From the NCBI RefSeq assembly GCF_010727945.1, contig NZ_AP022569.1:1550001-1614000 (forward strand): 64,000 bases of DNA, written 5' to 3'. This document shows positions 3 through 54,197 of this stretch, piece after piece. The number at the start of each line of letters is the position of its first letter. The stretch's first letter is position 1. The notes beneath the pieces are model-generated. The model made no database searches and was not told where the DNA came from. It saw only the letters and a program-made list of their open reading frames with translations. Made by a program: the position numbers and the translations under genes. The stretch is from Mycobacterium cookii (GTDB taxonomy: Bacteria > Actinomycetota > Actinomycetes > Mycobacteriales > Mycobacteriaceae).

Positions 3-179
3 CGTACGGTCGTGCACTGCCTGCCGCCCAAGGATTGGACCGAACCCGGATTCATGGGTCTCGGCATGATCTACACGGCGATGCCGGTGACCAATGCGGT
101 ACCCGCGGTCGTCGCGGCCAGGCCGGGAATCGTCACGCTTGCCGACTTACCGCCGATCACCGGCCGCGCCGCGGGGTAG
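3..179 (+). CDS. C-terminal end of a dihydrodipicolinate-reductase-like oxidoreductase (partial)
   Basis: The frame beginning at base 3 is open from the window edge to a TAG at 177-179, giving 58 residues. It contains MGLGMIYTAMPVTNAVPAV and then a VTLADLPPITGRAA end. This matches, from memory, the closing segment of the mycobacterial NAD(P)-dependent family annotated as dihydrodipicolinate reductase N-terminal-domain or amine-dehydrogenase-like proteins, where a T-A-M-x-x-x-N-A-x-P-A-V stretch precedes a LPxITGR tail. The nucleotide-binding part lies outside the window, so substrate and reaction cannot be judged. A gap of 163 bases separates it from mmpS, so it is probably a separate transcription unit. 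Confidence 0.65.
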   Translation, partial: RTVVHCLPPKDWTEPGFMGLGMIYTAMPVTNAVPAVVAARPGIVTLADLPPITGRAAG

Positions 180-342
180 CGGTGCGGGCCTCGTCGCGTC
201 AAGGGGCCGCACAGAACGCGAGCGTGCCCTATCGTCTAGCATAGTTAGCCGAGCGAAGGGCCTCGGTGCGTCGACCTCGATGACCTGCAGAGGTGAGCTC
301 TTTCGGCAACGCTGCCCGGGCGGGGAAGCAGGAGGAGACCGA

Positions 343-786
343 GTGAGAGCAATGTCGATAGGCGGCCTGCTCAAGCGCTGGTGGATTCCGTTATTGCTCA
401 TCGTCGTGCTGTCCGTCTCCGGTCTCGCCGTGACACGCCTGCACAAGGTGTTCGGCTCCCAAGACCTCAACGCCAACGCAGGAGCCGGGATCAAGATCGT
501 GCAGTTCAACCCCAAGGTCGTGAAGTACGAGATCTTCGGCGCCCCCGGCAGCACCGCCAACATCAACTACTGGGACGCCGACGCCAACACCCATCAGCTC
601 AACAATGTGCCGCTGCCGTGGTCGTTCACGCTGTCCACCACGCTGCCCACGGTGAGCGCGAACATCATGGCGCAGACCGACGGCGGCCACATCGGTTGTC
701 GCATCACCGTCGACGGGGAGTTGCGCGAGCACCAGAGTTCCGACGGCCACAACGCCCAGACCTACTGCCTGGTGAAGTCCGCATGA
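343..786 (+). CDS. mmpS: MmpS-family membrane accessory protein
   Basis: This is a 147-residue MmpS-type protein: a short basic N-terminus, one transmembrane helix at about residues 15-31 and an exported beta-rich domain ending in a conserved Cys-containing segment (GCRITVDGE, later QTYCLV). MmpS proteins are periplasmic partners of MmpL lipid exporters. The GTG at 343 is chosen because AGGAGG at 330-335 sits seven bases upstream; an in-frame ATG at 352 is possible but is spaced too far. The stop overlaps the mmpL start as ATGA, so the two are translationally coupled. The location next to a polyketide synthase suggests the pair exports that product, which is inference from position only. Confidence 0.9.
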   Translation: MRAMSIGGLLKRWWIPLLLIVVLSVSGLAVTRLHKVFGSQDLNANAGAGIKIVQFNPKVVKYEIFGAPGSTANINYWDADANTHQLNNVPLPWSFTLSTTLPTVSANIMAQTDGGHIGCRITVDGELREHQSSDGHNAQTYCLVKSA

Positions 787-3674
787 GCAACCACGAAGCC
801 GCGACTACCGAAACCAAGAAACCGCACCGCCCCTATCTCCCGCACGCCATCCGCCTCTTCGCCATCCCGATCATCCTGGGCTGGGTGATCGTGACCGTCA
901 TCGTCAACGTCGCGGTCCCCAAACTCGAAGTCGTCGGCGAAGCCCACTCGGCACCGATGGCTCCCCTGGACGCACCGTCGATGAAGGCGATGATGCGGAT
1001 GGGGCACAACTTCCACGAGTTCGACTCCAACAGCACGGTGATGGTCGTCGTCGAAGGCCAACAGCCACTTGGTGAGTCGGCCCACCGCTACTACGACGAC
1101 ATCGTCCGCAAACTGCGCCAGGACACCAAGCACGTCCAGCACATCCAGGATTTCTGGGGCGACAGGTTCACTGCGGCCGGCGCCCAGAGCGCCGACGCCA
1201 AGGGCTCCTACGTGCAGGTCAACATCGCCGGCAACCAGGGCACCACCCAGGCCAACAACTCGGTGGAGGCGGTCCGCAAGGTTGTCGACGAGGAACCCGC
1301 ACCACCCGGGGTGAAGGCGTATGTCACCGGTCCCGCGGCGCTCTCCGATGACATGCACGTCATCGGCAACGACAGCCTGGCCAAGATCACACTTTTCACC
1401 CTGGGCGCGATCGCGATCATGCTGCTACTGGTCTACCGCTCGATCGTCACCACGCTGATCCAGCTGTTCATGACGTTCGTCGCGCTGGCGTGTGCCCGCG
1501 GCGTCGTGGCGGTGCTGGCCTACAACAACGCGTTCGGTCTGACCACGTTCGCGGCCAACATCCTGACGATGCTGGCGATCGCCGCCGGGACGGACTACGG
1601 GATCTTCCTCGTCGGCCGCTACCAGGAGGCGCGCCGCGAAGGCGAAGACCGGGAATCCGCGTATTACACGACATTCAAGGGTGTCGCGCCCGTCGTGCTG
1701 GGTTCCGGCCTGACGATCGCCGGCGCGACGTACTGCCTGAGCTTCTGCCGGTTGCCGTGGTTCTCCACGATGGGCGCCCCGGTGGCCATCGGCATGCTGG
1801 TTGTCGTCGCGGCCGGACTGACGCTGGGCCCGGCGGTGGTGTTCATCGGCAGCCGGTTCGGCCTCTTCGAAAGGAAGAGCCAGGCCCGCGGCAAACTCTG
1901 GCGGCGCGTCGGCACCGCGGTAGTGCGCTGGCCCGCACCGGTTTTCGCGGTGAGCCTGGCAGCTGTCCTGGTCGGCATGGTCGCATTGCCGGGATTCAAG
2001 ACCAGCTACAACGACCGCCACTACCTACCCGAGTCGGCGCCGTCCAACCTCGGTTACGCCGCGGCCGATCGGCACTTCTCCGAAGCCCGGATGAACCCGG
2101 ACCTGCTGATGATCGAGTCCGACCATGACATGCGCAACACCTCCGACATGCTGGTGCTGGACAAGGTCGCCAAGAACGAGATCCGCACCGTCGGCATCGC
2201 GATGATCCAAGACATCACCCGACCGCTGGGAATTCCCATCCAGCACAGCTCGATTCCGTTCCAGAACAGCATCCAGAGCCAGACGACCATGCAGAACATG
2301 GACTTCCTCAAAGACAGAATGAAAGACATTCTGAAGATGGCCGACGAGATGCAGATCATGATCGACGTGACGACGCGGCAGGCGAAGGTCACCCACGATC
2401 TGGCGAGCGCCGCGATGGACAGCGCGAAGACCACGCAGGAGACGTCGGAGATCACCGACACGCTGCGCGACCACATCGCCGACTTCGAGGACTTCTACCG
2501 GCCGATCCGCAGCTATTTCTACTGGGAGAAGCACTGCTACGACATTCCGGTCTGTATCTCGTTCCGGTCGTTGTTCGACTCCATCGACGGTTTCGACCAA
2601 CTCGCGGAGAAGTTCCACGACCTCTCCGGCGATATCACCCGTACCGCGCAGGCTTCACACGAGCTGGAGCAGCTGATCCCGATCATGCTCGAGACGCTGA
2701 AGACGACACATGGCCTGACGCTGACCATGTACCAGACGTTCAAGGCGATGATCGACCAGATGGAGGCGATGAGTAACACCGCCATCGTGATGGGACAGAG
2801 CTTCGACAAGTCGCAGAACGACGACTTCTTCTACCTGCCGCCCGAGGCGTTCTCGAACCCGGAGTTCATCCGCGGCGTGAAGATGTTCTTCTCCCCCGAC
2901 GGAAAGTCGGTGCGGTTCTTCATCACTCACCAGGGCGACCCGATGACGCCGGAGGGCATCGACCGGGTGGGCGCGGAGCGCACCGCGGCCCAGGAAGCGC
3001 TCAAGCAGTCCTCGCTGTCCGACGCCAAGGTGTATCTCGGCGGGACCGCGGCGACCTTCCGGGACATGGCCGACGGCGAGAAGTACGACCTGATGATCGC
3101 CGTGGTGTCGGCGCTGACGCTGATCTTCATGATCATGCTGCTGCTGACCCGCAGCGTGGTGGCCGCGTTGGTGATCGTCGGGACCGCGAGCTCTTCGATC
3201 GCCGCGTCGTTCGGGCTGTCGGTGCTGATCTGGCAGGACCTGTTCGGCATGCACATCCACTGGATCGTGATGGCGCTGTCGGTGATCATCCTGTTGGCCG
3301 TCGGATCCGACTACAACCTGCTGCTGGTCTCACGCTTCAAGGAAGAGATCCACGCCGGACTCAAGACCGGATACATCCGGTCGATGGCCGGCACCGGCGC
3401 GGTGGTGACGTCGGCCGGTCTGGTGTTCGCGTTCACCATGGCCGCCATGCTGGGTAGCGACCTGACGGTGTTGGGCCAGTTCGGCTCGACGGTCTGCATC
3501 GGTCTGCTGCTCGACACCCTGGTGGTGCGAACGCTGTTCATGCCGTCGCTGGCCACGATGCTCGGCCGGTGGTTCTGGTGGCCGCAGGTCGTGCATCCTC
3601 GCGGCGACCACGCCGTCCGCAAGCCGGTTGCCCAGGACGAGAACACCGCCCCGCTGCCGGTGCCGGTGCGTTAG
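783..3674 (+). CDS. mmpL: MmpL4/MmpL5-like RND lipid transporter
   Basis: A 963-residue RND-superfamily exporter of the mycobacterial MmpL family, close in sequence to MmpL4/MmpL5 as remembered. It has a first helix near residues 26-46, a large exported loop, a helix bundle, a second exported domain with a long helical hairpin (about 500-680) and a second bundle. The Asp-Tyr pairs thought to relay protons in MmpL proteins are present as GTDYGIF near residue 270 and GSDYNLL near 843. Segments such as RSYFYWEKHCYDIP are typical of the MmpL4/5 group, whose members export siderophores or glycopeptidolipids. The start at 783 is fixed by the ATGA overlap with mmpS. It ends 13 bases from the convergent polyketide synthase gene. 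The cargo is inferred, not shown. Confidence 0.93.
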   Translation: MSNHEAATTETKKPHRPYLPHAIRLFAIPIILGWVIVTVIVNVAVPKLEVVGEAHSAPMAPLDAPSMKAMMRMGHNFHEFDSNSTVMVVVEGQQPLGESAHRYYDDIVRKLRQDTKHVQHIQDFWGDRFTAAGAQSADAKGSYVQVNIAGNQGTTQANNSVEAVRKVVDEEPAPPGVKAYVTGPAALSDDMHVIGNDSLAKITLFTLGAIAIMLLLVYRSIVTTLIQLFMTFVALACARGVVAVLAYNNAFGLTTFAANILTMLAIAAGTDYGIFLVGRYQEARREGEDRESAYYTTFKGVAPVVLGSGLTIAGATYCLSFCRLPWFSTMGAPVAIGMLVVVAAGLTLGPAVVFIGSRFGLFERKSQARGKLWRRVGTAVVRWPAPVFAVSLAAVLVGMVALPGFKTSYNDRHYLPESAPSNLGYAAADRHFSEARMNPDLLMIESDHDMRNTSDMLVLDKVAKNEIRTVGIAMIQDITRPLGIPIQHSSIPFQNSIQSQTTMQNMDFLKDRMKDILKMADEMQIMIDVTTRQAKVTHDLASAAMDSAKTTQETSEITDTLRDHIADFEDFYRPIRSYFYWEKHCYDIPVCISFRSLFDSIDGFDQLAEKFHDLSGDITRTAQASHELEQLIPIMLETLKTTHGLTLTMYQTFKAMIDQMEAMSNTAIVMGQSFDKSQNDDFFYLPPEAFSNPEFIRGVKMFFSPDGKSVRFFITHQGDPMTPEGIDRVGAERTAAQEALKQSSLSDAKVYLGGTAATFRDMADGEKYDLMIAVVSALTLIFMIMLLLTRSVVAALVIVGTASSSIAASFGLSVLIWQDLFGMHIHWIVMALSVIILLAVGSDYNLLLVSRFKEEIHAGLKTGYIRSMAGTGAVVTSAGLVFAFTMAAMLGSDLTVLGQFGSTVCIGLLLDTLVVRTLFMPSLATMLGRWFWWPQVVHPRGDHAVRKPVAQDENTAPLPVPVR

Positions 3675-3687
3675 CTCTCAGCCGCGT

Positions 3688-6600
3688 TCACGACGCCGCG
3701 GCCTCGTCCTGCTCGGACGAGAGATCGAGGCTCTCCGCGATCTGCCGTCCCACGTAGACGGCGACCGCGGTCGGGGTGGGGTGGTCGAAGATCAGGGTGG
3801 GTGACAAGGTCAGCCCCGTGGCGGTCTTGACGCGGTTGCGCAGCTCGACGGCGGTCAGCGAGTCGAATCCCAGTTCTTGGAACGCGGTGCCGGGGTCGAT
3901 TTCGTCGGGGGCGGCGTGGCCCATCACCGCCGCGGCGTGCAAACACACCATCTCCACCAGCAGGCCGTGCCGATCCTCGGCGTCCAGCGCATGTAGACGC
4001 TGTTCCAGCACCGACTTCGACTGGATGGCAGCGCCGGCGACGTCTTCGGCCGACCGGCGCCGCGGGCGGCGGGCCAGGCTGCTGAACAATGCCGGCAGGT
4101 CGCCCTGGCGGGCCCGGGCGTCCAGCGCGGCGCGGTCCAGTCGGGCGGTGACCACGACGGGGTGATCGACCGCCAACGCGGCGTCGAACAACTCCAGCGC
4201 CTGCGCCGGGCTCATCGCCGCCATGCCGTCACGGTTGAGCCGGGCCAGGTCGCGGCCACTCAAATGAGCGGTCAGAGCGCTGGACTGCTCCCAAAGTCCC
4301 CACGCCAGCGAGACCCCGGGCAACCGCGTTGCCCGCCGATGAGCGGCCAGCGCGTCCAGAAACGCGTTGGCCGCGGAGTAGTTGCCCTGACCGGCCGAGC
4401 CGACGGTGCCCGCGATCGAGGAGCACAGCACGAACATCGACAACCCCAGATCGCGGGTCAGCTCATGCAGGTTCCACGCGGCGTCCACCTTGGCCCGCAA
4501 CACCGTATCCACCCGGTCCGGTGTCAACGAGGTGATCACCGCGTCGTCGATCACGCCGGCGGCGTGGATCACGCCACGCAACGGTGGCCATCGCCGCCCC
4601 AACTGCGCCAGCAACTCGGTGAGCGCGTGTCGATCGGCGACATCGCAGGCCAGCACCTGCACCTGAGCGCCGGCCCGCGCCAGATCGAGGGTCAGCTCGG
4701 CGGTCGAGTCGGCGCGCCCGCCCCGCCGGCTGGCCACCACCACATGACGCACTCCGTAGGCTTTGACCAGATGCCGGGCCAGCTCGCCCCCGGCCATTCC
4801 GGTGCCGCCGGTGATCAGGACCGTGCCACCGGCAAGCTCGTGACCCAGCGTCGTGGGCATGGTCAAGACGACCTTGCCGATGTGGCGAGCCTGGCTGATG
4901 AATCGGTAGGCCTCTACGACGCAACGGACATCGCGGGTGCTCACCGGAAGCGGCTGCAGCACCCGGCTGTCGAACAGCTCCGTCAGCTCGTCCAGCATCT
5001 CGTGCATGCGCGCCGGGCCGGCCTCGGACAGGTCGAATGCCCGGTACGCGACACCGGGATACTCGGCCGCGATCGCCTGCGCGTCGCGGATGTCGGTCTT
5101 GCCCATCTCGATGAAGCGCCCGCCGCGGACCAGCAACCGCAGCGAGGCGTCCACGAAGTCACCGGCCAGCGAGTCGAGCACGACATCGACGCCGCGGCCC
5201 CCGGTGACCGCCAGGAACTTCGCTTCGAAATCCAGCGTCCGCGAGTCACCGATATGGTCGTCGTCGAATCCCATGGCGCGCAACGTGTCCCATTTACCAC
5301 GGCTGGCGGTGACGAAGATTTCGACCCCCCAGTAGCGAGCGAGCTGCACTGCCGCCATGCCGACGCCGCCGGTGCCGGCGTGTATCAGCACCGACTCCCC
5401 CGCCTTGACCTCCGCCAGATCCGCCAGCGCGTACAGCGCCGTCAGAAACGCCACCGGCACGCCCGCGGCCTGGGCGAGTGACCACCCCTGCGGCACCTTG
5501 GCCAGCAGTTGCCGGTCCACCACCGCCAACGGACCGGTTCCGTCGATCAACCCCATGACCGTGTCGCCGACGGCCAGACCAGCGACCCCGGCACCGGTCT
5601 CGACCACCACCCCGGCACCCTCTGCACCCAGCACCGGGGCTGCGCCGGGGTACATACCCAACGCCGCCACCACGTCCCGGAAATTGACCCCGGCGGCCGC
5701 AACCGCGACCCGCACCTGCCCTGCCTCCAGCGGCGCTTGCGCTTCCGGGCAGGGCTGCAGCGTGAGATCCTCCAGCGTCCCGCCGCCACCGGTCGACAAC
5801 CGCCACGCCGGCTCGTCCGCCGGTATCGCCAGCAGTGGCGGGGTCGGGGCCAGTCGCGCGGCGTGCACACCTCCGGCGCGCACCAGCAGTTGGGATTCGC
5901 CGAGGCCGGCGAGCTGCGCCGCGTCGACCTCCGCGTCCGCGTCGATCAGCACGATCCGGCCCGGATTTTCGGCCTGAGCCGTCCGCACCAGGCCCCAGAC
6001 CGCGGCGGCTGCCAGATCGGTGACGTCCTCGCCGGGCAACGCCATCGCACCGCGGGTCAACACCACCAAGGTGCCCGCGTGATCGCCGGTCAGCCAGCGC
6101 TGCAGCACCTGCACCGCAGCGTGGGTCGCGGTGTGGACGGAGCCCACCACGTCGTCGCCCGCAAATTCGTAGTGCCACACGACAACCCGCTCACCGCGGC
6201 TGTCGCCGGCGCAGAATTCCTCCCAGGACACCGCCGCGGGCTCTGCCCCATCGGCTTGGTCGGGCTTGGGCGGGAGCGGCGGCCACACGACTTCCAGCGG
6301 TTCACAGTCGCTGCGGGCGGCGGCCGTCGTCACCGCGGCCTGTAGCTGCTCAGCGGTCATCGGGCGGGTCACCAACGAGCGCACCGTCAACACCGGCAGC
6401 CCGGCGCCGTCGACCATCTCCACCGACATCGAATCCGAACCGAGCGCGGTGAAGCGGGCCCTGATCCGGCTAGTCCCGCCGGCGTGCAGCGACACCCCTC
6501 GCCAGCAGAACGGCAGCATCGTCTTGTTCGTGTCCACGGCGAGCCCCGCGGCGTGCAACACGGCGTCCAACAGGGCCGGGTGAATGCCGATCCCCTCGAC

Positions 6601-9600
6601 CTGAAGACCAGCGTCGGCAGGGATGGCCGCCTCGGCGAAGAGCTCCGCGCCGCGCCGCCATACCGCCGCCAAGCCTTGGAACGCCGGGCCGTAGTCGTAG
6701 CCGCGCGCGGCCAGCCGCGCGTATCCGTCCGAAATGTCGACACTTTCCGCACCGACCGGCGGCCACGCCGACAAATCCGCGGTGGCCTCGGCGGCGACGG
6801 CCCCGAGCGTGCCCTCAGCGTGTTGCAGCCATTCGGCGTCGGCCTGATCGAGCCGGGAGTACACGGACACCGCGCGGCTACCGGAGTCACCGGCGGGCCC
6901 CACCACGACCTGAACCTGCACGCCGGCGCCCGGCTGTACCACCAGCGGGCTGGCCAACACCAGCTCGTCGATGATCGCGCACCCGACCTCGTCGGCGGCC
7001 CGGATCACCAGCTCCACGAAACCGGCACCGGGAAACAGCACCACCCCGCCGACCTGGTGATCGGCCAGCCACGGCTGAGCGGCCAGCGACAACCGGCCGG
7101 TCAACACGACCCCGCCGGAATCGGGTCGTTCGAGCGCCGCGCCCAGCAGCGGGTGCCCGGTCGCCGCCACGCCCAGTCGGGTCGCGTCGGCCGGCCCGGA
7201 CGAGTTCCGGGTCGACCAGAACCGCCGCCCCTGGAACGCATAGGTGGGTAAGTCCACCCGCTGTGCGCCCGAGCCGGCGAAAATCGCCGGCCAGTCGACC
7301 CGCAACCCGGTGGCGAACACTCGCCCGGCGGCAGCCATCAGCGAGGCCGGCTCCGGGCGGCCTTTGGGCAACACCGAGACGACCACGGCCTCGGTGGGCG
7401 ACAGTGATTGTTCGATGGCGGCGGTCAAACCGCTGCCCGGGCCGACCTCGATGAAATGGGTGGCGCCGCAGGTCTGCAGATGGCGCGCACTGTCGGCGAA
7501 GCGCACCGGCCGGCGGACATGGTTCACCCAGTACTGCGCCGATCCGAAACCGGAGCCGGACCCGGCCAGCTCGGCCGTCACATTCGACACCACCCCGATC
7601 TGCGGATCCCGCACCTCGATCCGGGCCGCGATCCGCTCGAACTCCTTGAGCATCGGCTCCATCAGCGGCGAATGAAACGCGTGCGAGACCGCCAGCGGCC
7701 GGACCGGCCTGCCCTGCTTGGCCAGCCGCTGCGCGATCGAGGTCACCGCGGTCTGCGTTCCGGAGATCACCACCGATTCGGGTGCATTGATCGCCGCGAT
7801 CGCCACCCCTTCGCGCAGCAGCGGCGCCACAACGTGTTCGCCGGCGGCGACCGAGACCATGGCGCCGCCCGCGCGCAGGCCCTGCATCAACCGTCCCCGC
7901 GCAGCGACCAACATGGCCGCGTCGGCCAGCGTCAGCACCCCTGACACGTACGCCGCCGACAACTCGCCCACCGAATGACCCATGACGAAGTCGGGGGCCA
8001 GACCCCAACTCCGCAACAGGGTGAACAACGCCGTCTCGATCGCGAACAGCGCCGGCTGGGCGAACTCGGTGCTGTCGAGCAGAGCCTGATCGTCGCCCCA
8101 GACTACCCGGCGCAGCGGCAGCCGCAGATGCCGATCCAATTCATCGGCCACCGCATCGAAAGCCTGCGCGAATACCGGCAACTGGGCGTATAACTCGCGG
8201 CCCATCCCGAGCGACTGCGAACCCTGCCCGGGGAAGACCATCACCGTCTTGACGACCGGCGCCGCCCGTCCCGTCACCACGCCCGCACCGGGCTCGCCCT
8301 GAGCGATCCCGGCCAGCCCCGCCGTCAACTCCGCGCGATCGGCGCCCACCACGACTGCTCGGTGCTCGAACACCGACCGTTGCGACAACGACCAGCCCAC
8401 ATCGACCGGGTCCAGCTCTGGGGCGGCTTCCACACGGGCCAGCAATCGGCCCGCCTGCGCGGTCAATGCCTCAGCCGATCGCGCCGAGATCACCCACGGC
8501 AGCGCCGGCAACCCAATCGATTTGGCGTTGTCGCCGGCACTTTCGATGGTCTCGGCGGGAGCCTGCTCCAGGATCACGTGGGCGTTGGTGCCGCTGATCC
8601 CGAACGAGGACACGCCCGCCCGGCGTGGACGTTCGTCGGCCGGCCAGTCGCGGGCCTCGGTCAACAGCGATACCGCCCCACTGGACCAATCCACGTACGG
8701 GGAAGGGACGTCGACGTGCAGCGACGCCGGCATCACCCCGTGCTGCATCGCCTGCACCATCTTGATCACGCCGGCTGCCCCGGCCGCGGCCTGTGTGTGA
8801 CCCATGTTCGATTTGATCGAGCCCAGCCATAGCGGCTTGCCTGGCGGACGCTCTCGCCCGTAGGTGGCCAACAGCGCTTGCGCCTCGATGGGATCACCCA
8901 GTGTGGTGCCGGTTCCGTGCGCCTCGACCACGTCGACATCGGCGGCGGTCAACCCCGCGTTGGCCAGCGCCGCCCGGACCACCCGCTGCTGAGACGGGCC
9001 GTTCGGTGCGGTCAGGCCGTTGGAGGCGCCGTCCTGATTGACCGCGCTACCTCGCACCACCGCCAACACCGAATGACCGCGCCGTCGCGCATCCGACAGC
9101 CGCTCGAGCACCACAACCCCGACGCCCTCGCCCCAGCCTGTCCCATCCGCCGCGCCCGCGAACGACTTGCAGCGCCCGTCAGCGGCCAATCCCCGCTGCC
9201 TGCTGAACCCGATGAAGACCGCCGGCGAGGAGATCACCGTCGCCCCACCGGCCAGCGCCAAGTCGCACTCGCCGGAGCGCAGCGACTGCACCGCCCAATG
9301 CATGGCCACCAGCGACGACGAACATGCGGTGTCCACCGACACGGCCGGTCCCTCCAGGCCCAGCACGTAGGACACCCGCCCCGAGGCCACGCTCGACGCG
9401 GTGCCGGTCAGCCGATAGCCCTCCAGTGCGTCCTTGGCCGCGCATCCATAGCTTTGCCCGAAGATGCCGGAGAACACCCCGGTCGCTGACCCCCGCAACG
9501 ACATCGGGTCGATCCCGGCGTGTTCGAGTGCCTCCCAGGAGCACTCCAGCAACAATCGCTGCTCGGGATCCATATCCAGGGCCTCGCCCGAAGCGATCCC

Positions 9601-11718
9601 GAAAAAGCCGGCGTCGAATCCGGCCACGTCCGCCATGAACCCGCCCCGCCGGGTGTAGGTCTTGCCCACCACGTCTGGATCGGGATCGAACAATCCCTCG
9701 ACGTCCCAACCCCGATCGGTCGGGAAATCCGACACCACATCGCGACCGCTGCGCACGACCTCCCACAGCGCGCGTGCGGAATCCACCCCACCCGGGAAGC
9801 GGCAGCCCATCCCCACCACGACGATCGGCTCCTCGGCTTTCGCCGGCGACGGCAGCGTCACCTGCGTGGGCGCACCGGAGATCTCGGCATCCAGATACTG
9901 CGCCAGCCCGCTCACCGAGCCGTAATCCCAACCCAGGGTGTCCGGCAACCGCAGACCGGTGGCTGCCGCCAGCCGGTTACGAAGGGCGACCGTCATCTGC
10001 GAGTCGAACCCGAGCTCGGCGAAGGTGAGATCCGGGTCCACCGACCCAGGACCCGGCCGACCCAGGATTTTCGCGGTCTCGGTTCGGACGGCCTCGGCCA
10101 CCAGCCGGCGACGTTCGTCCTGCAGAACGGCCAACCGCTCGTTGAGCGTCACGCCACCGGAGAAGTTCGACGACGGCGCGTCATCCGGCGCCGCCCGTGG
10201 GTCCGGCAGCGGCTCGGTGACCGGCAGGTCCCATATCGGTGTGGTCGGGTCCGCCGCGCGAAGCACGGTTCGCCGCAACTTCCCGGTCGTCGTGCGCGGG
10301 AGCTGTTCCACTGAGGCAAACCTGTGCGGCACTTTGAAAGCGGACAGCCGAGTGAGCAGTCGACGGTGGATCTCGCGGATCGCTGACGGATCGACGGCCT
10401 CGCCCTGCGCCGGTACGAGAAAAGCCTGCAGCTCCCAGGCTCCGGTAGCCTCCCGGACCGAGACCACCGCGGCTTCGGCCACCTGGTCGTCCTCGACGAT
10501 GAGCTCCTCGACCTCGGCGGGATTGAAGTTGAGGCCCCCGACAACTTCCATATCGTCCGCGCGACACGAGTAGGTGACCCATCCGTCGGCGTCGACACGC
10601 ACGCGATCCCGGGTGTTGAGCCAGCCCCCGTCCGCCAGGAGATCGACCGACCGGTTCCAGTAGCCCGCCGCGACGGACGGCCCACGGACCCAGAGGTCGC
10701 CCTCAGCTCCCGGCTCGGTGGCGGAGCCATCGGGCGCCACCACCCGGATCTCGTAGGGTTCGAGAACCTTGCCGAGAGTGCCCGGCCGCCATTCGTCGAC
10801 GCGGTTGGACACGAATGTCTGGCCGACCTCGGTCGAGCCGATGCCGTCGAGGATGGGGATACCGCCGAAGTACTCGCGGAGTCGCTCGGCGAGCCCGACA
10901 CCGAGCGCCTCGCCCGCCGACACCACGCAGCGCAGCGAACCGAACGAATCGGGTGAGCAGGTCTGCACGACTCTGGCGAAAAAGGTCGGAACGCCGTAGA
11001 GCACCGACGGGGCGAATCGCGCGCTGAGCTCGGCCGCCAGGTCCGCGCTGACCGGCAGAGCAGTGATGACCGACGACCCGCCGGTGGCCAGTGGAAACCA
11101 GACCGAATTGCCCAGTCCATACGCGAAATGCATGCGCGCGCTGCTCAGCCCGGTGTCGCAGGGCGTCAGCTTCAAGGCTTTGTCACACATCGCGTCGACG
11201 AACGTCCACGCATCGCTGTGCCGATGAAGCGCAGCTTTGGGCGGGCCCGTGGTGCCGGATGTGTAGGTGGCGTACGCAAGCGCGTCGCCACTCACCGGCT
11301 CGTAGTCTCCCGGTTCGACGCTGCTCGCCTCGGCGAAGAGATCGCCGGCTTCCACAACGCGGGATCGCTGAAAGCGGCTGCGTAGCGCCCCCGATGTGAC
11401 AACGAGCGCCGGCTCGGCGTCACGCTCCTGAAACTGGTGGTCCTCCAGATGCAAGTCGGGATTCGACAGGACCGCCAGAATCCCCCGAGCCAGGCAGGCG
11501 AGCAACAACTCGACGAGTTCGGGCGAATCCGGCAGGCACAGCAGCACGCGGTCTGCTGCGGAAATTCCCCGGTTCCGCAGTACTTCTGCGAGGCGGGCGG
11601 CGGCGTCGTGGACCTGTCCGTGCGTCACCACGTGCGGTGCATAGTAGGCGGGCTTGTCGGACCACCCTGCGGCCGACGCCCGTTCAGCCAGCAGCGCTGC
11701 GAGGTTCTCGCTTCGCAT
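3688..11718 (-). CDS. FadD22-Pks15/1-type fusion: 4-hydroxybenzoate-loading polyketide synthase
   Basis: This 2676-residue protein combines functions carried by two or three proteins in M. tuberculosis. Residues 1-490 form an adenylation domain of benzoate-CoA-ligase type ([26 protein letters not shown]) that resembles FadD22 from its first residues. An acyl/aryl carrier domain follows, with phosphopantetheine Ser near 572 in GFDSQMTV. Then come KS (Cys near 799 in DTACSSS), AT (Ser near 1249 in GHSVGE; HAFH motif, malonyl type), DH (His near 1554 in [12 protein letters not shown]), ER (GTGGVGMAA near 2118), KR (TGGTGMAGG near 2304; Tyr near 2448) and a terminal ACP (Ser near 2620 in GFDSLTAV). 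All domains look intact and there is no thioesterase. The ATG at 11718 matches the remembered FadD22 start; GTG lies one codon upstream, with GGAGG ahead. Predicted role: self-loading of 4-hydroxybenzoate and iterative malonyl elongation to p-hydroxyphenylalkanoates. Confidence 0.88.
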
Positions 11719-11890
11719 CACTGGACCGCCTCCCTAGTCCGCCCCCGAAAACGCTCCTCTGTCTCCCGCGCCATGCGCGATACCCCGTTGTCGGTGCTAA
11801 GGACTTCTTGGGATCCGCTCAGCAGATGCAAATCTATTTCCGATTCCTAGTAGCGATGTCGCGCGAATCCTGGCTACCACCGGGTTCATC

Positions 11891-12484
11891 CTACGAAGGA
11901 TCCCGGAAAATATTTCGCAGAAAATATTCAGTAATAATCATCACCGGCCGCCCTCCGGAAATCAGCCGATAGCGACGGCCCACAGTTTTCGCTCCTGGGG
12001 TTTCGCACCCCGACCCGGCGAGCCAACCGGGCGACGGCCCTACCCAGACGTCCGCTGCCTCCTTGAACGTCTCAAGACGACTAGCAGCGAGAATTTCGCC
12101 GATCGGGCAGTCCGTCTTGGTCAGGCTGGTCGTCATCGCAGGTGGCAGCAGGTCCATGGCGATCAGCGACTCCGCGGCCACATATGCGTGACCCGAACTC
12201 CGCCCCCGCAGCAAGATTCGTCGCCGAAGAAGCCGGCCGTCCGGCGGCTGCTCCGGACCAGAGGTGCCCGGCATCGTTTCGTGGACCTGTTGCTCGAGAA
12301 TCTGCACGAAGATCTCGTCGTCGGCGACAATGCCGAGAATTCGAGTAAGGGTGCCGTTGCTGGCGATGAGTATTCGGAGGTCGCGATTGAGCGTTCGAAT
12401 TTCGTCGTCGGTCAGCATGCACTCGACCGGATCTGGTGCGCCAGCGTATCCGAGTCCGTCGTTCAGGTGAATGTCCGGGATCAT
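11891..12484 (-). CDS. Chorismate pyruvate-lyase (Rv2949c-like), 4-hydroxybenzoate source
   Basis: A 197-residue protein strongly resembling M. tuberculosis Rv2949c, the chorismate lyase that releases pyruvate from chorismate to give 4-hydroxybenzoate for phenolic glycolipids. Shared stretches include EIRTLNRDLRILIA, NGTLTRIL, VAAESLIAMD, the ETFKEAADVWVG segment and a RRYRLISGGRP ending. The ATG at 12484 gives 197 residues; an internal ATG at residue 23 corresponds better to the remembered M. tuberculosis N-terminus, so the true start may be at about 12418. It lies directly upstream of the FadD22-like fusion in the order seen at the M. tuberculosis phenolic glycolipid locus, with 172 bases between. 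The last 70 bases are AT-rich compared with neighbours. Confidence 0.85.
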   Translation of the reverse strand: MIPDIHLNDGLGYAGAPDPVECMLTDDEIRTLNRDLRILIASNGTLTRILGIVADDEIFVQILEQQVHETMPGTSGPEQPPDGRLLRRRILLRGRSSGHAYVAAESLIAMDLLPPAMTTSLTKTDCPIGEILAASRLETFKEAADVWVGPSPGWLAGSGCETPGAKTVGRRYRLISGGRPVMIITEYFLRNIFRDPS

Positions 12485-12696
12485 GGGTAAGCGTCCAAAC
12501 GCGTCAGTTCACATCTCGGGTAACGCTCATCGAAGGCCGAGCGTCGAATGCTACCGCCGGTGGTGATGGCAATCGAGTCCGACGTCCTTGTCGGTTGCCT
12601 CACCACTGACCGATCGCCTCCTCTTGCGACTCTCGGCAATGTTTGAGCAACCCTACAGATTCCTCGCAGAATTGGCGCGCCGCGAACGCACCGGCC

Positions 12697-13554
12697 TCAC
12701 ATACTCGCCGGCGGGTCGACGTCGCCGGCCACGTCCACGCACACCCCGAGCGCGCCTGCTCCGACGTGGAGCGCAAGCACCGGACCGAGTTCGGTCACTA
12801 TCGGCGACCCACAACCTGGCAACCGCTTACCGAGCGCGGTCACCACATCACGCGCACCGTCGGGATTGGCGACGTGATGCACGGCGATCGACGCCTGCCG
12901 ACCGTCGACGACCTCGCACACCCGGTCGATCATCGTCGCAGTCGCCTTGCTCGCGGTCCGTACCCGTTGCGCCAGAACGAGTTTGCCGTCGTCTATGCGG
13001 AGCAGCGGCTTGAGCGAAAGCTTGGTGCCCAGCCAGGCGCCGGCGCCACCGATGCGTCCGCTGCGTCGCAGATTGTCCAGTTGGTGCACGACGATGAACC
13101 CGTGGTTGCGGCTCACCGCCGCGGCGGCGGCGTTCGCGACGGTGTCCAGGTCGGCACCGCCGGCGGCGGCCCGCGCGGCAGCCAATGCGACGAAACCTGT
13201 GTTCATCGCGGCCGACTTCGAGTCGATAACCCTTACCGCTGAACCGAATTCGGCTGCCGCTACCTGGGCGGCCTTGAAGGTCCCCGACAGCGCCGCCGAC
13301 AGGTGCACAGCTACCACGCCGTCGCCGCCACTGTCCGCCAGCGCATCACGATACACATCGGCCAGCTCGGCCGGCGTGGCAGCGGTGGTCGTCGCGTGTC
13401 CATAATCGTGGATGTCGTGCGGGATGTCGTCCACCCCGTCGCGCAGGTCGGCACCGTCGAGCAAGATGTGCAGCGGGACCTCACGTATCGCCCACTGCCG
13501 GCGCAGTTCATCGGGTAGGCGGGCCCCCGAATCGGTGACGACGACGACGGGCAT
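12697..13554 (-). CDS. DegV-family fatty-acid-binding protein (Rv2417c-like)
   Basis: A 285-residue DegV-family protein. It opens with VVVVTDSGARLPDE and has the SAALSGTFKAA segment, corresponding to the conserved Ser/Thr region that contacts a bound fatty acid in this family, and ends with the HVGAGALGVCV segment near residue 265. In Firmicutes DegV-type FakB proteins hand fatty acids to a kinase; the role in mycobacteria is not established. It is the first gene of the block collinear with M. tuberculosis Rv2417c-Rv2421c and lies 4 bases after octT on the same strand, so it is probably co-transcribed. The ATG at 13554 is the natural start. Confidence 0.88.
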   Translation of the reverse strand: MPVVVVTDSGARLPDELRRQWAIREVPLHILLDGADLRDGVDDIPHDIHDYGHATTTAATPAELADVYRDALADSGGDGVVAVHLSAALSGTFKAAQVAAAEFGSAVRVIDSKSAAMNTGFVALAAARAAAGGADLDTVANAAAAAVSRNHGFIVVHQLDNLRRSGRIGGAGAWLGTKLSLKPLLRIDDGKLVLAQRVRTASKATATMIDRVCEVVDGRQASIAVHHVANPDGARDVVTALGKRLPGCGSPIVTELGPVLALHVGAGALGVCVDVAGDVDPPASM

Positions 13555-52937: not shown

Positions 52938-54197
52938 TTATCGCGGCATCAGCCGCGCGGTTTCCAGCGACACTTCGGCGGCCGGGAAGCGCGCCAACAG
53001 GGCGTCGCCCATCGCCGCCGCCGGCGTCAGTACGCCGTGCAGGTCCGAGAGCGCAGTGCGGTCCAACGCCAGTGCCAGACCGCTTTCGCCCAACAGCACC
53101 GCGGTGGCTTTGTAGCCGGGGTCGCCGCTCTGGGCGATGGTCGCGACGTAGCGGGCGCCGGACGTCGTCGTGGTGTAGGTCTCGGCTTTGTAGAAGCCTT
53201 TCTCGCGAACGGCTTCGCTGGGGCCGGTGCCGGGCTTGGGCATCACCCGGTCGACCAGCTTGCGCGGCAACAGCCGGAAGTAGCGGCTACCCAACGTGAA
53301 CACCGCATTGCCGATTCCGTTGACGACCGCTGAAGCCACCGGAGCGATCGCGGAGGACCCCACGCTCATGTGCTCGTTGTACTGGAACCGCCTGCCGTAC
53401 GCGTAGTCCTGTAATGCGTTGCTGCGTCGGACGATTCGCGTGTTCGACGGCCCCATGACGAACCCGGCCGTGTACAGACCGGTGAGTTCCGGGGCGATCT
53501 GCCCGCCACGGCGACGGCGCAGGTCGGGTTGGGCGCCGAGTTCGGGTTCGGCGCCGCGGTCGGGACTGAGCGTGTAGGGGTCGGCGAATTGGCGACGCAC
53601 GTCGCCGTTCTTCGACGTGGAGTCGAGCACCTCCAGCATCGAAGCCACCGTGCCACCGGAGAACCCACCGGCGAACGAGCGGACCACGAAGTCGGTGCCC
53701 AGAAGTTCGCCGGCGCCGTCTTCGAGCGCCCTGCGATACAGCGCGTAGACCGTGAGATCCGAAGGAATGGAGTCGAATCCGCACGCGTGCACGATGCGTG
53801 CACCGGTATCGATGGCTTGTTTGTGGTAGAGGTCGATGCTCTCGCGGATGAACGGCGGCTCGCCGGTCAGGTCGGCGTAATCGGTCCCCGCCGCCGCGCA
53901 GGCAGCGACCAGCGGCAGGCCGTAGCGGCTGTAGGGACCGACCGTGGTGACGACGACCTGCGTCTGTGCGGCCATCGCATTCAGCGTCGACGGCGAGGAG
54001 GCGTCCGCCTGCAGGACCGGCCATGACTGCGCGGACTCCCCCAGCGTGTCGCGAATCGCCTTCAGCCGGTCGGTCGAGCGGCCGGCCAGCGCGATGCGCG
54101 CCGTGCCGCCGGCCCGGGCCAGATATTGGGCGGTGAGCTTGCCCACGAAGCCGGTGGCCCCGTACAGAACGATGTCGTACTCGCGTGTTGCAGTCAC
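52938..54197 (-). CDS. Saccharopine-dehydrogenase-like / trans-acting enoyl reductase family protein (Rv2449c-like)
   Basis: A 419-residue NAD(P)-binding protein. The Rossmann motif YGATGFVGKLTAQYL is near residue 12, followed by ALAGRSTDRL, VVTTVGPYSRYGLP, DLTGEPPFIRESI and HACGFDSIPSDL. It belongs to the mycobacterial group containing Rv2449c and the trans-acting enoyl reductase Rv2953 of phthiocerol synthesis. Given the FadD22-Pks15/1-like synthase in this window a lipid role is tempting, but Rv2449c has the same position next to valS in M. tuberculosis, so this is the housekeeping orthologue. The start is GTG at 54197, overlapping the stop of the S9 peptidase gene (GTGA). Confidence 0.88.
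   Translation of the reverse strand: MTATREYDIVLYGATGFVGKLTAQYLARAGGTARIALAGRSTDRLKAIRDTLGESAQSWPVLQADASSPSTLNAMAAQTQVVVTTVGPYSRYGLPLVAACAAAGTDYADLTGEPPFIRESIDLYHKQAIDTGARIVHACGFDSIPSDLTVYALYRRALEDGAGELLGTDFVVRSFAGGFSGGTVASMLEVLDSTSKNGDVRRQFADPYTLSPDRGAEPELGAQPDLRRRRGGQIAPELTGLYTAGFVMGPSNTRIVRRSNALQDYAYGRRFQYNEHMSVGSSAIAPVASAVVNGIGNAVFTLGSRYFRLLPRKLVDRVMPKPGTGPSEAVREKGFYKAETYTTTTSGARYVATIAQSGDPGYKATAVLLGESGLALALDRTALSDLHGVLTPAAAMGDALLARFPAAEVSLETARLMPR

Follow-up and report, generated by a model that had tools for sequence, protein, structure and literature searches.

Two described lipid pathways of mycobacteria come closest to the locus analysed here. In that of the phenolic glycolipids (PGL), FadD29, an enzyme that takes long fatty acids too, re-activates the product of FadD22 and Pks15/1, which then goes to PpsA-E (PMC11837247). 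In that of the trehalose polyphleates (TPP), the proteins Pks, PapA3, MmpL10, FadD23 and PE make these lipids in M. smegmatis and M. abscessus (MSMEG_0408-0412; PMC10465359). The present locus lies in a 64,000-bp stretch of the Mycobacterium cookii genome (the window; bases 1,550,001-1,614,000 of the single 5,318,517-bp contig, C1), where FadD22-like and Pks15/1-like parts form one polypeptide. With these parts in one chain and a chorismate lyase gene in front of the fused gene, the protein is by homology very probably a single-chain p-hydroxyphenylalkanoate synthase. The chances of the whole account proposed below, namely a one-chain synthase making a p-hydroxyphenylalkanoate that primes a TPP-type synthase, are judged to be about even.

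According to this account, the lyase would convert chorismate to p-hydroxybenzoate, which the fused protein would adenylate and load onto the first of its two carrier domains. The fully reducing module of the same chain would extend this starter repeatedly with malonyl units to p-hydroxyphenylalkanoate, one chain doing the job of FadD22 and Pks15/1, two separate proteins in the agents of tuberculosis and leprosy. The product would not enter the classical PGL pathway; it would prime a different assembly line for lipids, most probably the TPP-type synthase next to it, and the outcome would be a phenol-capped phleic-type acid on trehalose.

The fused protein and its chorismate lyase

The fused gene occupies the minus strand as an unbroken frame of 2,677 codons that opens with a GTG at 11721 and closes with the stop codon at 3688. 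Its second codon is ATG, as at the starts of FadD22 proteins, which gives 2,676 residues, the length of database entry P0003. Pfam detects AMP-binding, PP-binding (two stretches), ketosynthase (KS), acyltransferase (AT), dehydratase (DH), zinc-dehydrogenase (enoylreductase, ER) and ketoreductase (KR) families, and together with the motifs these give the order A-ACP-KS-AT-DH-ER-KR-ACP (A, adenylation; ACP, acyl carrier), confirming the initial annotation of this DNA, which had read one open reading frame (ORF) of this length and composition. All of the motifs sought are intact: GIGSTE and TTTGKL in the adenylation domain (a loose form of the latter pattern matches again at 315), LGFDS in both carrier domains, a 15-residue stretch and GHTQAAAG in the KS, a 12-letter stretch and LLDAVLH in the DH, GGVGMAA in the ER, and a 10-letter stretch and an S-Y-N stretch in the KR. 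The AT carries GHSVGE and HAFH, which we take to be malonyl-type motifs.

The NCBIfam model of FadD22 (NF004716) matches the protein with 1129.9 bits, residues 2-628 corresponding to model positions 1-633 of 705; the cut-off of 1228 bits is not reached and the last 72 model positions are absent. A 13-residue stretch of the adenylation domain is invariant in all nine aligned rows, standalone FadD22 among them, and the solved structures nearest to this domain are benzoate-CoA ligases, followed by anthranilate-CoA ligase and then by amino-acid enzymes. The N-terminal part thus combines an adenylation domain with a predicted aryl-acid substrate and the stretch shared with FadD22 with a carrier domain; by sequence comparison it has no FadD22 C-terminal extension behind the carrier domain, and it is not a separate protein. 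The remainder has the KS-AT-DH-ER-KR-ACP composition, intact motifs and malonyl-type AT of Pks15/1, groups in the tree with Pks15/1 and apart from Pks12-like modules, and lacks the Pks15-type N-terminal coiled-coil segment before the KS. Relative to the PGL-type set of genome G105 (compared genomes are designated by G numbers), identity is 70% to FadD22 (634 residues) and 74% to Pks15/1 (2,051 residues), in agreement with the annotated FadD22-like N-terminus and Pks15/1-like remainder.

The lyase gene ends 169 bp before the GTG of the fused gene. It is the only match to PF01947 in the M. cookii genome, and its score (Table 1) bears out the annotation of an Rv2949c-like chorismate lyase preceding the fused gene. 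The motifs GTLTR, PIGE and ITEY are invariant in 10 aligned rows, and the protein shares 59-65% identity with three lyases from PGL-type loci or with database copies of these. As judged from the profiles, the scores of the fused gene, the lyase and the MmpS/MmpL pair rule out chance. Given the motifs, the structure matches, the invariant adenylation stretch, the lyase score and the unbroken frame, there is no sign of an aliphatic or amino-acid-type adenylation pocket, of missing lyase residues or of a frameshift. The substrate, iteration and product of the fused protein would be those known from M. tuberculosis, and homology supports the annotated synthesis of p-hydroxyphenylalkanoates.

Rv2949c-like lyases also occur elsewhere without a FadD22-polyketide synthase (PKS) gene, namely at the loci L042/L055, L051/L060 and L054/L063 (within the 20 kb compared at each, 12 kb for L055), each pair having a gene neighbourhood common to two genomes; p-hydroxybenzoate seems to serve other pathways too. 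In G237 (L050, L122) a second lyase and a FadD22-like head adjoin an MmpS/MmpL pair (40% and 55% identical to that of the window), PKS genes and a gene resembling those of non-ribosomal peptide synthetases (NRPS); there, two overlapping frames encode the head and its PKS.

Table 1. Features of the fused gene, the insert and its flanks, in window coordinates
Feature	Position	Strand	Remarks
Fused FadD22-Pks15/1-type gene	3688..11718	-	2,676 residues; ORF 3688-11721 includes GTG ahead of likely ATG start
Adenylation domain	10246..11721	-	residues 1-492 of the 2,677-codon ORF; PF00501/PF13193
First acyl carrier domain	9877..10101	-	residues ~541-615; LGFDS at 570
Ketosynthase	8569..9831	-	residues 631-1051; Cys motif 797, His motifs 933 and 974
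Rfam ASpks antisense RNA match (RF01782)	8812..8886	+	73.2 bits, gathering score 52; opposite strand of KS region
Acyltransferase	7342..8247	-	residues 1159-1460; GHSVGE and HAFHS
Dehydratase	6340..7155	-	residues 1523-1794
Enoylreductase	4858..5754	-	residues 1990-2288
Ketoreductase	4288..4827	-	residues 2299-2478
Second acyl carrier domain	3760..3930	-	residues 2598-2654; protein end 23 residues further on
Chorismate lyase, Rv2949c-like	11891..12484	-	PF01947 53.5 bits, cut-off 22; start codon uncertain; entry P0123 is a shorter 175-residue form
Insert	3675..12696		9,022 bp between mmpL and degV stop codons
MmpS	94..786 (ORF; true start probably further in)	+	PF05423; old neighbour outside insert
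MmpL	381..3674 (ORF; true start probably near 780)	+	TIGR00833 945.6 bits, cut-off 874.7; old neighbour outside insert
degV-like gene	12697..13554	-	right flank of insert

Distribution of fused and separate forms

The one-chain synthase type is not unique: it occurs widely among mycobacteria, metagenomic ones included, and databases already have names for it. Residues 1-640 were searched against 5.8 billion proteins, the 7,984 best candidates being scored and standalone FadD22 falling outside through a length rule. Among the best 120 of 1,800 matches, the FadD22-like head was found in at least 55 further clusters at 61-79% identity (four cover only 51-80% of the query), after which identity drops to at most 33%. 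These clusters comprise 31 of 2,630-2,709 residues, nine of 3,083-3,160 residues, and 15 that are partial or more divergent. The window domain order recurs in 30 of the 31, the remaining one having no detected ER. Some of them bear the source names '4-hydroxyphenylalkanoate synthase' or 'polyketide synthase 1/15' (e.g. P0004 and P0015).

In the surveyed genomes of the genus, a FadD22-like match (E <= 1e-150) is present in 30 of 396, with 38 matches in all. In a set of 397 relatives spanning 55 genera, the 26 positive genomes are all of this genus. Both surveys scored three candidates per genome, so that copies may be undercounted. Several arrangements can be distinguished: separate FadD22 and Pks15/1 in PGL-type loci; the fused form of the window, shared with the metagenome-assembled genome (MAG) G148; fused proteins with an extra C-terminal domain (G157, G223, G206, G149 and G381); a FadD22-like head on other PKS modules, e.g. 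in G113 (M. szulgai), G216 (M. angelicum) and G064; and a separate FadD22 followed by a very long PKS. The A-ACP heads on other PKS modules (L064, L065, L068, L032 and L056, from M. szulgai, M. angelicum and three more genomes) are attached to modules 51-56% identical to the KS-AT part of the window protein.

The A-domain tree was built from 111 hits, reduced to 88 by dropping second copies of the same genomes, and holds 81 of these rows plus eight outgroup rows; for KS-AT, 60 of 75 rows were used, leaving out TPP-type modules. In the later trees, including the most careful one, modules below 1,750 residues and other PKS types were also left out, giving 48 rows. The careful tree places the window protein in a clade of 12 fused proteins (support 100/100), and the separate forms, including those of the long TPP-type proteins described below, in one clade of 16 rows (100/100); its base is open. 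In quick rooted trees the separate forms were nested inside the fused ones. A single clade of fused proteins was not rejected by approximately unbiased tests (p = 0.839 for the A domain, 0.308 for KS-AT and 0.523 for the whole module). For the A domain the constrained tree surpassed the free quick tree by 22.8 log units; it was 10.2 worse for KS-AT and 1.9 better for the whole module. In four separate pairs, FadD22 has the C-terminal extension and Pks15/1 a coiled-coil-like N-terminus, both of which are absent in the window protein. The statement that the fusion removes these docking parts is therefore right as to their absence, while the direction of change that it assumes is not settled by the trees.

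The insert and the neighbouring TPP-type cluster

The fused gene and the lyase are the sole content of the insert. In five relatives (G189, G132, G339, G392 and G030), the TPP-type cluster, an oxidoreductase, mmpS, mmpL and degV follow one another in that order (of the cluster in G030 only a part was compared). There mmpL is convergent with degV, the gene ends being 1 or 4 bp apart or overlapping by 4 bp, and the fused gene and the lyase are absent at this site. The mmpS frame was called in four of these genomes and recognised in the fifth (G189) by an 87% match. The MmpS and MmpL of the window are 86-92% identical to those of G189, G339 and G030, which are 86-89% identical among themselves. 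The shared site and the equal similarity indicate that the pair is an old neighbour. The annotation of a compact locus with its own exporter does not hold: it is a 9-kb insert beside a TPP-type cluster, and the reading of MmpS/MmpL as a dedicated exporter was dropped because both occupy this site in five relatives without the insert. The pair may carry the lipid, but nothing marks it as dedicated to this task.

In MAG G148, a fused gene cut by the contig end (head 80% identical), the lyase and degV have the order of the window; the insert is thus probably older than the split of the two lineages. This conservation, together with the open frame of 2,677 codons and the intact motifs, makes it very improbable that the insert is a horizontally gained lipid gene that is unused or decaying, as could be thought from its absence at the same site in the five relatives and from the GC content at third codon positions of the lyase (0.68, against 0.79-0.85 in mmpL, the fused gene and degV). 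A mosaic import of the region was also considered and dropped, as identity in 1-kb bins against G189, G339 and G030 gave no sharp breakpoints. In the compared parts, identity between the six TPP-type genes and their counterparts in these three genomes is 69-87%, against 83-98% among the latter; the flanking oxidoreductase, MmpS and MmpL do not have this raised divergence.

The TPP-type set directly left of the window (C1:1528012-1547617) comprises pks, papA, mmpL, PE, fatty acyl-AMP ligase and sap, and so contains together the five gene kinds by which a TPP-type cluster is recognised (pks, papA, mmpL, PE and ligase). The PKS has 3,752 residues and the order KS-AT-KR-ACP-KS-AT-DH-ER-KR-ACP. PapA-like (PF00668), MmpL (TIGR00833) and ligase (NF004509) proteins were named by general family models; Sap matches PF11139, and the PE acyltransferase scores 578.8 bits with NF041570, slightly below the cut-off of 580. 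Of 396 genomes of the genus, 301 have a PE-like gene (E <= 1e-70), hence TPP-type clusters are common. Elsewhere in the genome, the region C1:3125001-3200000 (L078-L081, L144) encodes a second TPP-like PKS of 3,663 residues, located close to NRPS-like genes, and a 3,268-residue fusion of an acyl-AMP ligase with a PKS, which has the extra C-terminal domain. A stand-alone protein of 467 residues encoded there shares 49% identity with this domain of the longer fused proteins.

Destination of the product and comparison with known systems

The TPP-type destination is suggested by analogy with four relatives in which Pks15/1-type modules are physically joined to TPP-type ones. In G157, presumably M. 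aubagnense, the region 3,791,322-3,831,211 contains a TPP-type PKS, papA, mmpL10, PE, lyase, FadD22, a PKS of 5,735 residues, sap and a fatty acyl-AMP ligase, the lyase and FadD22 thus sitting within the TPP-type cluster. The long PKS starts with a Pks15/1-type module, which groups with Pks15/1 in trees, and past its carrier domain runs straight into a KS resembling the start of the TPP PKS; its TPP-type modules follow, and it is 75% identical to the TPP-type PKS of M. cookii over 3,758 positions. As judged by eye, the fused protein of the window ends about where this TPP-type part starts. The same joined synthase follows a lyase and FadD22 in G218 (Mycolicibacterium sp. BiH015; 5,731 residues) and G229 (an M. 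iranicum strain; 5,725 residues), and has at least 4,368 residues in G142 (an M. iranicum strain), where it is ended by the contig end. In these four genomes the TPP-type module on the same chain appears to be the only visible receiver of the Pks15/1 product. A PpsE-like match (68%) is present in G218, G229 and G142, so that a pps receiver is possible in those three. None was found at E <= 1e-200 in G157 or in G223, G206, G149 and G381, all five of which have a fused FadD22-Pks15/1-type protein, and this speaks for a destination other than classical PGL. It is proposed tentatively, at somewhat less than even chances, that there is a second class of phenol-capped mycobacterial surface glycolipid, in which p-hydroxyphenylalkanoate replaces the fatty starter of the TPP synthase, as it does in PGL for phthiocerol, and which has at least two gene layouts: a FadD22-Pks15/1 chain beside a TPP cluster, and Pks15/1 joined to the TPP synthase.

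Several observations weigh against such a role of the TPP-type synthase in M. cookii. It is of the ordinary kind, 79-83% identical to those of four relatives without the fused gene, and is a separate protein to which no docking segment was seen to join the fused protein. Among the 30 FadD22-bearing genomes, PE lies within 10 kb of a FadD22-like gene in two (M. cookii and G157), too few for a statistical test; it is far off on the same contig in six and on different contigs in eight (including G148, G218, G229 and G142), and 14 have no PE match. In addition, Pfam finds no thioesterase domain in the fused protein and no counterpart of FadD29 above 58% was detected in the stretches compared, so that the hand-over of the product is unexplained; re-activation of the aryl product by the acyl-AMP ligase of the TPP-type cluster, as FadD29 does in PGL, would be plausible.

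If the TPP-type cluster were a mere neighbour, the p-hydroxyphenylalkanoates might be released, or esterified by another acyltransferase, as small aryl-lipids. The cluster is indeed old at this site, being present in relatives without the fused gene, and with PE-like genes so common a chance adjacency is not absurd. Moreover, the five genomes whose fused protein carries the extra C-terminal domain, condensation-like as read, have no PpsE-like match (E <= 1e-200). The window protein, however, has no such domain, the insert holds two genes only, and in four genomes Pks15/1-type modules are joined to TPP-type modules; release as small aryl-lipids is therefore considered unlikely, though it deserves serious thought.

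A different receiver could be sought in a pps-like cluster. The annotation that no ppsA-E genes are present is true of the window, yet at a distance of about 400 kb (C1:1,960,290-1,987,498) the genome has a diverged pps-like cluster, 50-62% identical to that of G105. It encodes five synthases of 1,749, 1,619, 1,767, 1,802 and 1,467 residues, and the region C1:1938206-1987498 also contains genes for a PapA5-like protein (45%), for a ligase of the FadD26/29 kind (58%) and for methyltransferases that share 59-61% identity with one next to a PGL locus, presumably of the Rv2952 type by gene order; a gene at 293425 has a 62% match to a protein that we take to be Rv2951c-like. With these components the product might enter a dispersed PGL pathway and yield a phenolphthiocerol-like lipid. 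Against this, DH and ER, which PpsC has, are absent from the third synthase, no Mas-type protein above 35% was found among all KS frames longer than 1,400 residues except a fatty acid synthase-like one, and the best match to LppX in the genome is 36%. The PpsE-like gene is also shared with relatives without the fused gene (G030, 90%; G189, 88%; G339, 87%; G132, 61%), and the five fused-gene genomes mentioned above have none, which leaves this destination improbable. Cytochromes P450, methyltransferases and an AurF-type N-oxygenase are encoded near the pps-like cluster (L073-L076). A protein encoded at 52938-54197 of the window (minus strand) is 67% identical to an Rv2953-type enoylreductase of a PGL-type locus; its place in the gene order suggests a paralogue rather than the PGL gene.

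Biosynthesis of PGL has been studied mainly in a few pathogens, and its first steps are seen here in metagenomic and other mycobacteria, several of them without a PpsE-like gene, either in a single chain or with the Pks15/1 module fused to a TPP synthase. If the proposed link to TPP is true, the aryl starter would be a portable cassette re-priming different mycobacterial lipid lines, and TPP chemistry would be broader than described. Some phages need TPPs in order to infect (PMC10465359), and phenol-capped TPPs, if made, could have a bearing on phage range and on the cell surface. The one-chain form lends itself to enzymology without docking partners, and the link between Pks15/1 and the TPP synthase, sharpest outside the window, is the part most worth following. 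In the accessible text of the surveyed papers on TPP, FadD22/chorismate lyase and pks15 (including PMC10465359, PMC7205293, PMC4331801, PMC7456886, PMC11837247 and PMC12183618), neither the fusion nor an aryl TPP was seen described.

Compared with known systems, the window shares with FadD22, Pks15/1 and Rv2949c of the PGL pathway a lyase, a p-hydroxybenzoate adenylation-carrier pair and a fully reducing PKS module. It differs in having these enzymes in one chain, with neither the FadD22 C-terminal extension nor the Pks15 coiled coil, and in the absence of FadD29, Rv2951c-Rv2953, LppX and ppsA-E beside the fused gene. From the proteins named 4-hydroxyphenylalkanoate synthases there is no essential difference: they have the same length and domains, and their first 640 residues are up to 79% identical. 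The joined synthases of G157, G218, G229 and G142 likewise come with a lyase, FadD22 and a Pks15/1-type module; there, however, FadD22 is a protein of its own and it is the TPP-type modules, two in number, to which the Pks15/1 module is joined, whereas the window has FadD22 in the fused chain and its TPP synthase stands alone next to it. The same gene kinds as in the TPP cluster pks-papA3-mmpL10-fadD23-pE (MSMEG_0408-0412; PMC10465359) adjoin the window on the left. The TPP precursor is described as bearing a fatty acyl group of C14-C19 together with a phleic acyl group, and an aryl starter does not appear in the accessible text of that account (PMC12183618). A phenol-capped TPP-like lipid would relate to TPP as PGL relates to the phthiocerol dimycocerosates (PDIM).

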